Part shown: one piece after another, positions 44,983 to 59,432 of the stretch
How the letters are laid out: each line of letters starts with the position of its first letter
How positions within the stretch are numbered: the first letter of the stretch is position 1
From: Bordetella parapertussis
Lineage (GTDB): Bacteria; Pseudomonadota; Gammaproteobacteria; Burkholderiales; Burkholderiaceae_A
Direction: 5' to 3'
Length of the DNA: 64,000 bases
Assembly (NCBI GenBank): GCA_945901825.1
Contig: CAMDMC010000002.1
Coordinates: forward strand, 61,862 to 125,861
Notes under the pieces: generated by a model
The model's database searches: none
What the model was told of the DNA's origin: nothing
The model's input: only the letters and a program-made list of their open reading frames with translations
Position numbers and translations under genes: made by a program

Positions 44983-54413
<9,431 letters not shown>

Positions 54414-54451
54414 TGCGCAGCGTCACTCCCATATGACTTTTTCGTTTTCTT

Positions 54452-54480
54452 ACTCTAGGCTCGGGGCCTTGGAATGTCAA
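54452..54480 (-). promoter_or_regulatory. Predicted bchF promoter (sigma-70 type)
   Basis: On the minus strand, a perfect -35 box TTGACA (54475-54480) is followed after 17 bases by TAGAGT (54452-54457, 4 of 6 to TATAAT). It lies 38 bases upstream of the bchF start. The -35 box is the left half of the PpsR palindrome, so PpsR binding would block RNA polymerase directly. Promoter call is from hexamers only. Confidence 0.6.
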
Positions 54481-54492
54481 CCAAACGAGACA
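54475..54492. promoter_or_regulatory. PpsR/CrtJ binding palindrome TGT-N12-ACA
   Basis: TGTC, ten bases, then GACA (TGTCAACCAAACGAGACA) is a perfect match to the known PpsR/CrtJ target TGTN12ACA with the extended TGTC/GACA arms. It lies between divergent bchF and aerR-ppsR, overlapping the bchF -35 box. This suggests aerobic/light repression of the bch operon and autoregulation of aerR-ppsR. PpsR itself is encoded 1.1 kb to the right. Confidence 0.8.
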
Positions 54493-54502
54493 TCAAATTT
54501 AA

Positions 54503-54531
54503 TTGACATCTCTGACAATGTCACGGATAGT
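54503..54531 (+). promoter_or_regulatory. Predicted aerR-ppsR promoter
   Basis: On the plus strand TTGACA (54503-54508), 17 bases, then GATAGT (54526-54531; 4 of 6 to TATAAT). It lies 54 bases before the aerR start codon. A second inverted repeat, TGACAT-N8-ATGTCA (54504-54523), overlaps it and could be another regulator site. The PpsR palindrome ends 11 bases upstream of the -35. Confidence 0.55.
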
Positions 54532-54584
54532 CCTAGACAAAACCTCGATAAAACTTCTCGACAAAGGCGATGGTCAGGAGGATC

Positions 54585-55619
54585 ATGGATTCACAAACAA
54601 AAGCAGCCATCAACAAGCAGGGAAGCGAACCACCCGCATCGGGCCAGGCTGCTTACCGTGCAAATGCTGCAGGGAGCGTCGCCATGAACGAGCCGTACTT
54701 ACGTCGGTCGTACCTCCGTGGTCAGGAGACAGCGACCATTGAACTCGAAGCCAATGCGGTACTAGAGGTGCTGACCCATCAGGTCATTCCGCAATTGGTC
54801 TTATCGGAAACCCCTACCCAGGCGACATCTGCCCGAGTAAAGCCCAGACAAGGCTGCAGTCTTGGTGCCCAAGCCCCCGAGGCTGACGCACGTTTTCCTG
54901 ACCTGCAGACTGCGGCCAAGGCCTTGGCTGAGATGGCTATGGACAACAATGCTGGCGGCTGTTGGCAGCTCATTCACGACCTACGGCGCGAAGAAGACCT
55001 TTCACCGGAGGCCGTGATGCTTGGCCTCATTCAGCCCGCAGCGCGATGCATGGGCGAGGGGTGGATGGCCGATCGCTGCGATTTTGCAGGTGTCACCATT
55101 GGGCTGTGGCGGCTTCAGCAAATTCTGAACGACCTACGGCTTGAGGTTCAGCAAACTGCACCACAGAATGCGTCCCGCGTTTTTGAGCCCGGCCAGCCCA
55201 TTCCAAGCATTGCGTTAGCCACCCTGCCCGGCTCCCAGCATCGACTTGGACTGCAAATGGTGAACAGTTTTTTTGCACGGGGCGGCTGGGACTGCTTCAT
55301 GCTCGAATCGAAATCGGAGATCGACCTGCTTGGCGAGATTCACCGGCTTTCACCCGATGTCGTAGGGCTCTCGGTTGCCAGCGAGGCAGACATCAAGCAG
55401 GTGGCACGCTTCATACAAAGGGTACGAGCCATCAAACTCAAACAAGCCCCTCTCGTCATGCTCGGCGGCCCGGCCCTTGTTGCTTTCCCAGAGCTCGCCG
55501 ATCAGGCCAAGGCCGACCTACTTGTCGGTGACGCTGATCTCGCCGTTGAAAAAGCCGTCTCAATGCTTCGTAGCCGTTTAAACCCAAACGGCCCCTCCAA
55601 AACAATTACCAACTCCTAG
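54585..55619 (+). CDS. aerR: AerR/PpaA-type cobalamin-binding regulator of photosynthesis genes
   Basis: Antirepressor partner of PpsR. The 344-residue protein has a variable N-terminal third, a helical domain (about residues 115-190, including EGWMADRCDFAGVTIGLWRLQQ) and a C-terminal B12-binding Rossmann domain. There SQHRLGLQMVNSFF carries His219 in an altered D-x-H-x-x-G motif (Ser for Asp), then VVGLSVASE and VMLGGPALVAFPELA. ATG 54585 is set by aggagg at 54576-54581. It ends in TAG, and the same frame continues into ppsR 15 bases later. In Rhodobacter, light converts the B12-bound AerR so that it modulates CrtJ/PpsR. Confidence 0.9.
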   Translation: MDSQTKAAINKQGSEPPASGQAAYRANAAGSVAMNEPYLRRSYLRGQETATIELEANAVLEVLTHQVIPQLVLSETPTQATSARVKPRQGCSLGAQAPEADARFPDLQTAAKALAEMAMDNNAGGCWQLIHDLRREEDLSPEAVMLGLIQPAARCMGEGWMADRCDFAGVTIGLWRLQQILNDLRLEVQQTAPQNASRVFEPGQPIPSIALATLPGSQHRLGLQMVNSFFARGGWDCFMLESKSEIDLLGEIHRLSPDVVGLSVASEADIKQVARFIQRVRAIKLKQAPLVMLGGPALVAFPELADQAKADLLVGDADLAVEKAVSMLRSRLNPNGPSKTITNS

Positions 55620-55634
55620 CAAAGACAACAAGCC

Positions 55635-57035
55635 TTGGGCTACAACGAACAATCTAAAGGCAAGGGACTTGCGGGTCTTGATGCTGACGAGAGTGCTGCA
55701 CTTGTTACAGCCGCGGCCGACATTACCTTGGTCATCGACGCCCAAGGCGTGATTCGCCAGGCCATTACAGGCAGCACCGACTGGCAGCCCAGTCGCGCGC
55801 AAGGCTGGGTAGGCAAGGCCTGGGCGAATGTCGTTACCTCGGAGAGCCGCCCCAAAATTGAAGAAATGCTGCGCGAAGCACAGGCTGGAAAGCCTGATGC
55901 CCGCTGGCGGCACATTAACCAACTCAGCGAACAAGACGAAGAAATACCTATCCTCTTTTCCCTTGTTCGCATCGGCAAAGAGGGGCAGATGGTGGCCATT
56001 GGTCGCGATCTTCGGCCTGTTGCCTCGCTGCAGGCAAGGCTGGTGGAAGCTCAGCAGCTTATGGAGCGCGACTACCTGCGACTTCGCGGTGTGGAGGGGC
56101 AGTTTCGAATGCTCTTCGATCTCGTCCACGATCCGGTGTTGCTTATTAGCGCGCGTTCTCATCAAATTATCGAAGCCAACCGTGCCGGCGGACAGTACCT
56201 TCAGAAAGACCGTCAGTCCATTATTGGCGAGGCCATTGAGGCCTTCTTGTCCGACCGCGCAACCTCGGCCTTGCACAGCACCCTTCAACAGGTAGCAAGT
56301 TCAGGCAGACCCGCCGAGGTCAGCCTGCGGTTTGTTAAGCACGAGGGCTCGGCCAGGGTTCTCGTAAGCTACCTTCGGCAAGAGTCCGACACGGTCTTCA
56401 TGGTGCGCATCGATTCCGAAAAGCCGCATCCCGGAGAGGACACAGCACTGCTTGAGGCCGTGCGTCAGTTTAGTGATGGACTGGTCTTAACCGACACCAA
56501 AGGCATTATTCGAAGTGCTAACCCAGCCTTTGTTGAAATGATTCAAATGGTCCATGCGGGCCAGGTTATTGGCGAGCCTCTGAACCACTGGCTAGGACGC
56601 GCCAACACCGACCTTCTTGTCATGACCAACAGCCTCTCACAGGGTGGTCCTGTAAGGCTTTTCTCAACCCAGCTCATCGGCCATGCCGGGCTTGTGGTGC
56701 CGGTTGAAATTTCAGGCATCTCTGTTGAAAGCGACGACCAGCCCTTTCTTGCCTTTGTCATTCGCGACGTGGGCCGACGGCTTGAGGGCAGGCTCGATCA
56801 GGCCTCCCGGCCACGCTCGAACCAGGACCTCACCGGCCTTGTGGGCCGTATGCCGCTGCGCGAAATTGTGGGCGAAACGGTCGACCTCATTGAAAAACTC
56901 TGCATCGAAGCCGCATTGAAAATCACCAAAAACAACCGAGCCTCGGCTGCTGACATGCTTGGTCTTTCTCGACAGAGCCTCTACGTCAAGCTGCGTCGTT
57001 ACGGCATCGAGGGGCCCGACTCCGACGAGGATTAA
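55635..57035 (+). CDS. ppsR: PpsR/CrtJ-type transcriptional repressor of photosynthesis genes
   Basis: PAS-domain DNA-binding regulator of 466 residues. An N-terminal domain and two PAS domains (about residues 155-260 and 275-385, the latter with LTDTKGIIRSANPAF) precede a FIS-type helix-turn-helix. The helix-turn-helix (residues about 425-455, RASAADMLGLSRQSLYVKLRR) binds TGTN12ACA. The only candidate start near the N-terminus is TTG 55635, with no ribosome site; no ATG or GTG precedes residue 75. It is in frame with aerR, one TAG apart. The single cysteine (about residue 424, in the HTH) means the two-cysteine disulfide described for CrtJ cannot form within one chain. crtA starts 5 bases after it. 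Confidence 0.9.
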   Translation: MGYNEQSKGKGLAGLDADESAALVTAAADITLVIDAQGVIRQAITGSTDWQPSRAQGWVGKAWANVVTSESRPKIEEMLREAQAGKPDARWRHINQLSEQDEEIPILFSLVRIGKEGQMVAIGRDLRPVASLQARLVEAQQLMERDYLRLRGVEGQFRMLFDLVHDPVLLISARSHQIIEANRAGGQYLQKDRQSIIGEAIEAFLSDRATSALHSTLQQVASSGRPAEVSLRFVKHEGSARVLVSYLRQESDTVFMVRIDSEKPHPGEDTALLEAVRQFSDGLVLTDTKGIIRSANPAFVEMIQMVHAGQVIGEPLNHWLGRANTDLLVMTNSLSQGGPVRLFSTQLIGHAGLVVPVEISGISVESDDQPFLAFVIRDVGRRLEGRLDQASRPRSNQDLTGLVGRMPLREIVGETVDLIEKLCIEAALKITKNNRASAADMLGLSRQSLYVKLRRYGIEGPDSDED

Positions 57036-57040
57036 GCCCC

Positions 57041-57838
57041 GTGCACACGGTGGTGGTTGTCCTGTCGCGCCTTCGGCCCTCTGCCGTTGGCTGGGCAGTC
57101 TCTCGACTGGTTATGTCTGCCTTTGGGCCCGCCGCCTGGCCTGGCCTTGTCTTTCAGAAAGTCTTGGGAAGCGGCGAGCACGGGGGCTTTGGGCTCAAGC
57201 CCGGTCTTGACCATCAAGGCCTCTTTACCGCTTTCAATAATCCTGAGGCGGCCAATAACTTTTTAGAAAATGCGCCGCAGGTCAAGGCTTATCAGGATCG
57301 CTCCGAGGAGTTCTTCGCTGCTCTGCTCAGTCCAGTCTCCTGCCGCGGCCAGTGGTCGGGCTTTCAGCTCGAGCCGCCCGAGCAGGCCAAGGCTGTCGAT
57401 ACCGTTGAGCAGTCGCAGACATTGGAAAAAGCACCACAACTTCCTTCAAAGCCAGGCCTTGAATGCTCGGTTGCGTCCCTTACCCGAGCAAGTATTCGAC
57501 CCCTGAAAGCGCGCAGGTTCTGGGCCCAATCCCCCGATGCCGAAGACGACCTCGCCAAGGCTCAGGGCTGCCTTCTTGCTGTAGGTCTTGGCGAGGCCCC
57601 GCTTTTACGGCAGGCCACATTCAGCCTTTGGAAAGACCAGGCCGCCATGGACGCCTATGCCCACAGTGGCGCCCATCAGCGCGCCATTCAGGCGGCCTAT
57701 GGCCAGAAGTTTTTCTCCGAGTCTATGTTCGTTCGATTTCATCCTCTGCGGCTCGAAGGCCAGTGGCAGGGTCAGCGCTTTCTCAGGCAGCCTGGCCTGG
57801 GTCAGGCCTACCTTCAGCAGGCGCCCCACAGTGGCTGA
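57041..57838 (+). CDS. crtA: Spheroidene monooxygenase
   Basis: O2-dependent enzyme that oxidises spheroidene to spheroidenone, giving red colour and photoprotection. 265 residues. MSAFGPAAWPGLVFQKVLGSGEHGGFGLKPGLDHQGLF (about residues 26-63, quoted in part) and the C-terminal ATFSLWKDQAAMDAYAH and FFSESMFVRFHP are typical of CrtA. The middle (about 110-175) is variable. Start is GTG 57041, 5 bases after ppsR. It overlaps crtD by 8 bases, so translation is linked. Presence of crtA with crtC and crtD indicates the spheroidene branch. Confidence 0.9.
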   Translation: MHTVVVVLSRLRPSAVGWAVSRLVMSAFGPAAWPGLVFQKVLGSGEHGGFGLKPGLDHQGLFTAFNNPEAANNFLENAPQVKAYQDRSEEFFAALLSPVSCRGQWSGFQLEPPEQAKAVDTVEQSQTLEKAPQLPSKPGLECSVASLTRASIRPLKARRFWAQSPDAEDDLAKAQGCLLAVGLGEAPLLRQATFSLWKDQAAMDAYAHSGAHQRAIQAAYGQKFFSESMFVRFHPLRLEGQWQGQRFLRQPGLGQAYLQQAPHSG

Positions 57839-59432
57839 ACGCCGGGTTGTTATTGTGGGGGCAGGCATGGCTGGCCTTGCCGCTGCCATCGACCTCGCCG
57901 GCCAAGGGGTGCGCGTCACCCTGCTTGAGAAAGATGCGCAGGTGGGCGGTAAAAACCATCAGAAAATTGTTGCTGGCCAGGCCATGGACTCCGGCCCCAC
58001 CGTCATCACGATGCGCTGGGTCTTTGAAGACCTGCTTGGCGGCGTAGGCTTAAAACTTGAGGATTTTGTTGAACTCAAGCCCCTGCCCATCATCGCCCGC
58101 CATGCCTGGTCAGGCGAGGAGCGGCTCGACCTTTTTGCCGACGAGGCCGCATCGGCCGATGCCATTGCGGAGTTTTCAGGGCCCGCAGAGGCCGTTCGTT
58201 TTCGGGCTTTTAGCCAAGAGGCCCGGCGTGTCTACCATGCCCTTGAGGCGGCCTACATTCGCGCCGAGCGCCCCACCATGAGCTCCATGAGCCAGGACAT
58301 TGGTCTTCGCGGCCTAAGCCTCTTGGCGGGGCTTGGGCCTTTTGCAAGCCTTTGGAAAAGTCTGGGCCGATACTTCCACGACCCGCGGCTTCGACAACTC
58401 TTTGCCCGCTATGCCACCTACTGCGGGGGTTCACCATGGCAGGCACCGGCCACGCTTATGCTTATTGCCTATGTCGAGCAGCGCGGGGTCTGGGCCGCGC
58501 GCGGCGGCATCAAGGCCCTGGCCCTGGGGCTTGCGCGGGCTGCGCAAAAGCTTGGTGTGGACATTCAATGCAATGCACAGGTAAACGAAATTCTTATCGA
58601 GCAAGGACGTGCGAAAGGCGTGGAGCTTAGCAACGGCCAAAGGCTCTTGGCCGATGCCGTGATTTTTAACGGCGAGGCGGCCGCCTTGCATCAGGGTTTA
58701 CTGGGAAGTCCAGCGAAGGCGGCCGTGCCAAGCACCGAAGGGCTTTACCCAAGGTCCTTGTCCGCCCTTACCTTTTCCATGGTGGCCCGCACCCAGGGCA
58801 TGGCCTTGGACTTCCACAATGTTGTCTTTCAGAAGACGCCCTACGAAGACGAGTTCCAGTCTGTCTTTTCCGAAGGCAGGCTACCGGCCCGACCCACGGT
58901 CTACATCTGCGCCCACGACCGCGGGCCTTTTGGTCCAACCCGCTCCAGCGCGGCCGAACAGCCACAGACACAACACCATGAAGACAGGCCTGTGCATGGG
59001 GCGAAGCCCGAGGCGGAGCGGCTCTTTATGCTTATTAACGCGCCCGCACGCGCAGACCGTCAGACCCTTCTCGAAGAGGAAATCAGCGTATGTCAGAAAC
59101 GCGTCTTGGCCCAGCTGCAACAGGTGGGTCTTACGGTGGAGCCCCAGGCCGTGCAGGTTGGCCGGCCGCAAGACTTTCACCAGATGTTTCCTGCCTCCGC
59201 GGGGGCTCTTTATGGAATGGCCCCCCACGGATGGATGTCCTCCTTTCAGAGGCCCACGAACCGAACACCGGTGCCGGGGCTCTTCCTGGCGGGGGGCAGC
59301 GTGCACCCGGGAGCGGGGGTTCCCATGGCCAGCCTCTCGGGCCGACTGGCGGCCGCAGCCCTGATGGCACACCTCGATTCGACCAGAAAGTCCCAGCGGG
59401 TGGTTATCTCTGGTGGTATGTCGATGGGCTAA
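57831..59432 (+). CDS. crtD: Hydroxyneurosporene / methoxyneurosporene desaturase CrtD
   Basis: FAD-dependent C3,4-desaturase of the spheroidene pathway. 533 residues from GTG 57831 (the longer frame from 57588 overlaps crtA). The dinucleotide fold is VVIVGAGMAGLAAAIDLAG (about residues 6-24), followed by GGKNHQ and MDSGPTVITMRWVFEDLL. The CrtI-family C-terminus LFLAGGSVHPGAGVPMASLSGRLAAAALMAH ends near residue 515. The final 20 or so residues read across the crtC N-terminus and are not conserved. The central loop (about 365-395) has a His/Ala/Gln-rich insert. Stop is 54 bases inside conserved crtC coding. Confidence 0.88.
   Translation: MAERRVVIVGAGMAGLAAAIDLAGQGVRVTLLEKDAQVGGKNHQKIVAGQAMDSGPTVITMRWVFEDLLGGVGLKLEDFVELKPLPIIARHAWSGEERLDLFADEAASADAIAEFSGPAEAVRFRAFSQEARRVYHALEAAYIRAERPTMSSMSQDIGLRGLSLLAGLGPFASLWKSLGRYFHDPRLRQLFARYATYCGGSPWQAPATLMLIAYVEQRGVWAARGGIKALALGLARAAQKLGVDIQCNAQVNEILIEQGRAKGVELSNGQRLLADAVIFNGEAAALHQGLLGSPAKAAVPSTEGLYPRSLSALTFSMVARTQGMALDFHNVVFQKTPYEDEFQSVFSEGRLPARPTVYICAHDRGPFGPTRSSAAEQPQTQHHEDRPVHGAKPEAERLFMLINAPARADRQTLLEEEISVCQKRVLAQLQQVGLTVEPQAVQVGRPQDFHQMFPASAGALYGMAPHGWMSSFQRPTNRTPVPGLFLAGGSVHPGAGVPMASLSGRLAAAALMAHLDSTRKSQRVVISGGMSMG

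Follow-up and report, generated by a model that had tools for sequence, protein, structure and literature searches.

The closest described counterparts of the locus analysed here are the aerR-crtJ and ppaA-ppsR pairs of purple bacteria. AerR is known to interact with PpsR/CrtJ in Rhodobacter capsulatus, where long and short AerR forms arise from two starts and have opposite effects on photosynthesis genes (PMC6199135). TGT-N12-ACA is given as the PpsR consensus in PMC4452267, and a review describes translational coupling as most efficient at short distance and influenced by the Shine-Dalgarno (SD) sequence (PMC12548453). In the 64,000-nt stretch of Bordetella parapertussis-labelled DNA studied here, which we call the window, the aerR-ppsR pair differs from those of purple bacteria by a 15-nt gap between the genes, a TTG-started ppsR and a coincidental shared frame. 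We read the junction as that of an unexceptional operon whose second gene begins with a rare codon; translational readthrough from one gene into the other is unsupported, whereas coupling is plausible.

The window holds part of a photosynthesis gene cluster. bchH, bchB, bchN and bchF lie on the minus strand and, divergent from bchF, aerR and ppsR are followed by genes matching crtA, crtD and crtC, the crtA and crtC matches falling under the curated cutoffs. PpsR contains PAS domains and a Fis-type HTH (HTH_8) and belongs to the PpsR/CrtJ family, scoring 449.7 bits against the equivalog model TIGR02040 (cutoff 275.4), with residues 23-458 covering model positions 1-442. AerR scores 49.2 bits against the B12-binding domain PF02310 (cutoff 32.1) and adjoins ppsR, a combination that points to the AerR/PpaA family of B12-binding antirepressors and photoreceptors; in the comparison with NCBIfam, no AerR-specific model matched, and only CarH was hit, far under its cutoff (22.6 against 400). 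The downstream genes at 57041 and 57588-59432 match crtA (below cutoff) and crtD; a GTG at 57041 lies 5 nt past the ppsR stop, so that the operon may continue.

Coordinates of the features discussed in the text, numbered from the first nucleotide of the window.
Feature	Position	Strand	Basis
aerR, long form, 344 aa	54585..55619	+	Pfam B12-binding above cutoff; AGGAGG SD directly upstream
Candidate short AerR, 311 aa	54684..55619	+	internal in-frame ATG; SD AGGGAG 54671-54676
Stop codon TAG of aerR	55617..55619	+	read from sequence
Spacer aerR-ppsR, 15 nt, without Shine-Dalgarno	55620..55634	+	
ppsR start codon TTG	55635..55637	+	relatives: TTG/GTG/ATG 54-63 nt before same motif
ppsR (PpsR/CrtJ repressor), 466 aa	55635..57035	+	TIGR02040
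TGT-N12-ACA, predicted PpsR/CrtJ-type operator between bchF and aerR	54475..54492	+	pattern match
Sigma-70-like promoter TTGACA-17-GATAGT before aerR-ppsR	54503..54531	+	10/12, consensus match only

A sequence-only reading of the window had described aerR and ppsR as one open frame interrupted by a single TAG, and this description holds: past the TAG the same frame reads CAA AGA CAA CAA GCC TTG and meets no further stop until the TAA of ppsR (57033-57035), giving 471 codons from stop to stop. It had also noted that neither an ATG or GTG before the PAS region nor a ribosome site before the TTG is present, and both observations were borne out by a codon scan and by anti-SD energies. From the aerR stop to a conserved motif with which the PAS region opens, TTG 55635 is the sole ATG, GTG or TTG. 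The next in-frame candidates, TTG and GTG at open-frame codons 37 and 44, are already inside the first PAS match, which starts at PpsR residue 26. The anti-SD duplex energy upstream of TTG 55635 is only −0.9 kcal/mol, reached or beaten by 77% of 3000 random window positions, and we therefore assign no ribosome site to this start. The single-stop, shared-frame pattern is real, yet not improbable. By arithmetic, two tandem genes share a frame in 1 case out of 3 and five codons are stop-free in ∼79%, and about one closely spaced tandem pair in four is expected to look like aerR-ppsR here by chance.

The nearest genome compared, G001, has 34% of the window 31-mers in common, and PpsR was detected in 10 of the 11 genomes of its genus. 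As the ppsR start of these ten we took the ATG, GTG or TTG located 54-63 nt before the conserved PAS-head motif, so that a start codon in 10/10 is partly the result of choice, the start having been picked within this band. The codon is TTG in G001, G006 and G011, GTG in G002-G005 and G007, and ATG in G009 and G010. It is followed by GG, as in the window, in seven of the ten, whereas G003, G004 and G005 agree with it by position alone. In G002, an additional ATG precedes the banded start in frame by three codons.

Beyond the genus, we drew on a contig search, of which the best 80 of 202 places were kept, and on a start-codon table of 112 sequences (111 loci plus the window). We omitted 15 of these, namely 12 PpsR loci whose motif was missed or misplaced by the search pattern (L032, L037, L045, L051, L071, L097, L103-L108) and three without a PpsR match (L109-L111), and dereplicated the remaining 97 rows to 75 loci. 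A start codon lies 54-63 nt before the motif in 52 of the 75, the distance in the window being 63 nt (GTG 32, ATG 11, TTG 7, TTG plus ATG 2). The remaining 23 have no start codon in this band, so the position is not universal. In 36 of the 75 loci, no ATG occurs in frame anywhere from the preceding stop to the PAS motif, and non-ATG starts are, as judged from these loci, common in the PpsR family. Loci L007-L011, from metagenome bins, also have a TTG start, with aerR ending in TGA and overlapping ppsR by 14 nt. Two ppsR-containing bins, L009 and L055, are titled Bordetella parapertussis and Klebsiella pneumoniae, titles that are probably wrong.

Codon substitutions in the six pairs formed by the window, G006, G011 and G007 bear on the start from the coding side. 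In each pair, 2-9 of codons 2-21 of ppsR differ synonymously and 0-3 non-synonymously; they thus change mainly synonymously, as do codons 22-120, and the five best protein matches are 466 aa long, which is the length counted from TTG 55635. We consider it very probable that aerR and ppsR are separate genes with ppsR starting at this TTG. PpsR might instead begin at a non-standard codon such as ATT or CTG, or at a downstream codon, leaving TTG 55635 unused; odd starts do exist in the AerR/PpsR system, as PMC6199135 documents with the internal CTG start of R. capsulatus AerR. Against this stand the start codon at the position of TTG 55635 in all ten genus genomes with ppsR and the mainly synonymous variation of the codons directly following it, and we regard such a start as very unlikely. 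In the one literature collection searched we found no paper on a ppsR with a TTG start codon and, by title, none on aerR-ppsR coupling among the 15 listed of 26 matches.

Among the genus relatives the start stays in place and the frame relation drifts. ppsR shares the frame of aerR in only three of the ten genomes (G001, G006, G011; gap of 15 or 18 nt). The other seven have a different frame, with a 16-nt gap in G007 and overlaps of 8-17 nt in G002, G003, G004, G005, G009 and G010. The aerR stop varies as well, being TAG in G001, G005 and G006, TAA in G003, G004, G007 and G011, and TGA in G002, G009 and G010. In LSUCC0115 (L014), probably a cultured strain, ppsR starts with GTG and also lies in a frame other than that of aerR. 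For six of the 75 dereplicated loci, no stop of aerR lay 0-250 nt from the motif. The other 69 junctions comprise 26 with a shared frame and 27 and 16 in the two remaining classes, a count that serves as a rough guide only because related loci cluster in it; the same-frame share is about at chance level. For L089 the aerR stop was taken as TAG (52), the frame class being the same either way, and for L012/L088 it was taken at 46, read through in the sequence. The aerR frame of L012/L088 seems broken by a frameshift ahead of an intact C-terminus, which may be an assembly error. In 17 of the 26 same-frame junctions the open frame of ppsR begins immediately behind the stop of aerR. Genus g2 has a same-frame single stop in four of seven genomes, but an ATG follows six bases later, so readthrough is not called for there. 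The frame shared by aerR and ppsR in the window thus appears to be a coincidence of where aerR stops in a small clade.

These comparisons bear directly on the proposal that programmed readthrough of the TAG yields an AerR-PpsR fusion. The sequence-only reading had named relatives with an ATG-started ppsR in a different frame as the observation that would speak against it, and G009 and G010 are of this kind. It had also suggested a leaky stop context, an argument that turned out weak: the leaky context from a plant virus is CAR-YYA, which UAG CAA AGA does not match. What speaks for readthrough is that the frame is open across one TAG in the window, G001 and G006, and across a TAA in G011. Readthrough in E. 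coli follows the order TGA > TAG > TAA, TAG falling behind TGA in reporters; certain contexts allow it to reach 80% when cells are stressed, and it is favoured by low T and by high G downstream (PMC11126739); with 0 T and 2 G in 15, the spacer gives a mixed signal. The same text reports no TAG gene among 15 readthrough genes detected by mass spectrometry in E. coli, which its authors blame on the rarity of TAG.

Against a fusion, apart from the differing frames and the TAA of G011, stands the spacer itself, which varies in length and codons, with one extra codon in G011 and another frame in G007. In the same six pairs as above, synonymous differences are absent from the five codons preceding the TTG, where each pair has 1-3 non-synonymous ones; on these small counts, the codons behave as a non-coding spacer. 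We further searched 5.8 billion proteins with the window read across the TAG (7996 candidates scored, 796 matches) and found no fusion among the 120 matches listed, which are 449-519 aa long and cover ≤78% of the query region. Nor does any open frame among the clear PpsR matches in 61 genomes exceed 556 aa (codons). The RNA of the junction folds no better than shuffled sequences (z 0.14) and Rfam at gathering scores gave no match in 54000-57500, and an RNA element at this site was rejected on these two measures. A hairpin seen by eye, AGCC-TTG-GGCT with the TTG in its loop, is intact in the window, G001 and G006 and absent as such from G011 and G007, and was dropped. Stop reassignment or suppression was likewise rejected: TAG looks like an ordinary stop in the window, ending 10 of 33 long ORFs, aerR included (the 33 were hand-picked from 57, without homology checks), and the window contains no tRNA gene.

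In sum, we found neither conservation of the stop, the frame and downstream coding nor a leaky context or stimulatory structure. A conserved and used AerR-PpsR fusion can be set aside, while trace readthrough is possible on the sequence; programmed readthrough strikes us as extremely improbable. This makes the PpsR start in the lineage clear and removes the false lead of a fused antirepressor and repressor.

The other proposal of the sequence-only reading, a TTG start coupled to AerR termination, fared better. The TTG start stood, with the codon kept at its position, and coupling is plausible given the short stop-start distance. In the mechanism that we propose, aerR and ppsR would be co-directed, presumably co-transcribed genes of one photosynthesis-cluster operon, with PpsR initiating at TTG 55635, 15 nt past the aerR stop. 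Given the rare start and the missing SD, PpsR would probably come largely from ribosomes leaving AerR, by termination-reinitiation, which would tie the repressor PpsR to the antirepressor AerR at a lower level. So worded, as an operon in which ribosomes just finishing AerR probably supply most of the TTG-started PpsR, we find the statement likely; coupling of PpsR to AerR termination, taken by itself, we favour by a modest degree.

Like known termination-reinitiation pairs, aerR and ppsR have stop and start less than 20 nt apart, an SD-less downstream start and products of a kind that interacts in R. capsulatus. In all 17 genomes of the genera g1 and g2 the start lies between −17 and +18 nt from the stop, a short and conserved distance as expected of coupled pairs; in the genus g3 loci L102-L104 the gap is 76 nt or more. 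Unlike the usual coupled pairs, which overlap by −4/−1, the window has its start at +15 nt, and where aerR and ppsR of relatives overlap by 14 nt, a modest SD is present (anti-SD −5.4 to −6.6, reached by 5-16% of random positions). Anti-SD energies at the start are weak in G006 (−0.9), G007 (−1.0) and G011 (−2.9), as they are in the window, and they are also weak in the overlapping G003 (−1.9), G004 (−3.3) and G005 (−3.9). In the clade of the window, a short gap lacking a ribosome site may thus have taken the place of an overlap that had a modest one.

Reporter measurements in E. coli found reinitiation down by 40-80% at +14 nt and nearly gone at +38 nt (PMC10666635), so that coupling across 15 nt would be expected to be weak. 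Coupling by RNA unfolding is unsupported because of the unremarkable folding score of the junction. A weak coupling that holds the repressor below the antirepressor is, we infer, the likeliest reading. PpsR could also start at TTG 55635 weakly and without dependence on AerR translation, from a shared or a separate mRNA, since the gap is within the range where the reporters show coupling to drop. Also in favour of this uncoupled start, SD-less translation initiation is known; it is opposed by the missing SD at this TTG, by the short distance in all 17 genomes of g1 and g2, and by a scan between aerR and ppsR that returned no promoter-like site (and no terminator-like site on the + strand). We hold it to be rather unlikely.

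AerR itself may be made in two forms. As with LAerR/SAerR of R. capsulatus, aerR in the window offers two start codons in one frame, and a separate ribosome site precedes the internal one; unlike there, where the internal start is a CTG after 40 codons, it is an ATG after 33, and the two forms are predicted here from the gene. The SD of ATG 54585 is strong (anti-SD −9.7) and merely 3 nt from the ATG; that of ATG 54684 has an anti-SD energy of −8.0, equalled by 2.2% of random positions, at a spacing of 7 nt. Both ATGs are kept in the window and in all four closest genomes, as is the AGGGAG before 54684, and GCTGCAGGGAG ahead of the second ATG is identical in all five. The ribosome site before ATG 54585 is variable, and weaker in G006. 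Constraint on the 33 extra codons is no more than loose (between the window and G007, for instance, dN is 0.32 and dS 0.45), which disfavours strong selection on the long form. Among other genus loci, L008, L011, L090 and L091 have two SD-backed aerR starts, and L007, L086, L088 and L089 have one. A second in-frame start with a ribosome site, at a distance within the 30-45 N-terminal codons expected of a dual-isoform gene, is thus predicted for the window. A further promoter-like site, the weaker TCGACA-17-GATCAT at 54558-54586 (9/12), would begin its transcript past ATG 54585 and serve only short AerR.

Upstream of aerR, the predicted operator sits between divergent promoter-like sites. The form TGT-N12-ACA is rarer than chance in the 64 kb (2 seen, 9 expected) and occurs upstream of aerR in the window and in each of the ten ppsR-bearing genomes of the genus, against a chance expectation of 0.09-0.18 per region. 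It was not found upstream of aerR in L007, L008 and L011, in a comparison that left out L009 and covered L010 by just 48 bases. Both hexamers of the TTGACA-17-GATAGT promoter are unchanged in the four closest genomes, and together operator and promoter suggest a possible autoregulation.

In these phototrophic Burkholderiales, the balance of repressor and antirepressor could depend on which start aerR uses, together with the weak start of ppsR. More tentatively, and with the odds in our view against it, the operon of this Burkholderiales clade might hard-wire a three-way ratio: long and short AerR by the choice between starts 54585 and 54684, PpsR through an SD-less TTG dependent on ribosomes leaving the aerR stop, and an upstream PpsR-type operator closing an autoregulatory loop. 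Just upstream of aerR, at 54531-54569, TCCTAGACAAAA...CTCGACAAAGGCG is nearly invariant in the four closest genomes, and TCCTAGACAAAA is also present in L090 and L091.
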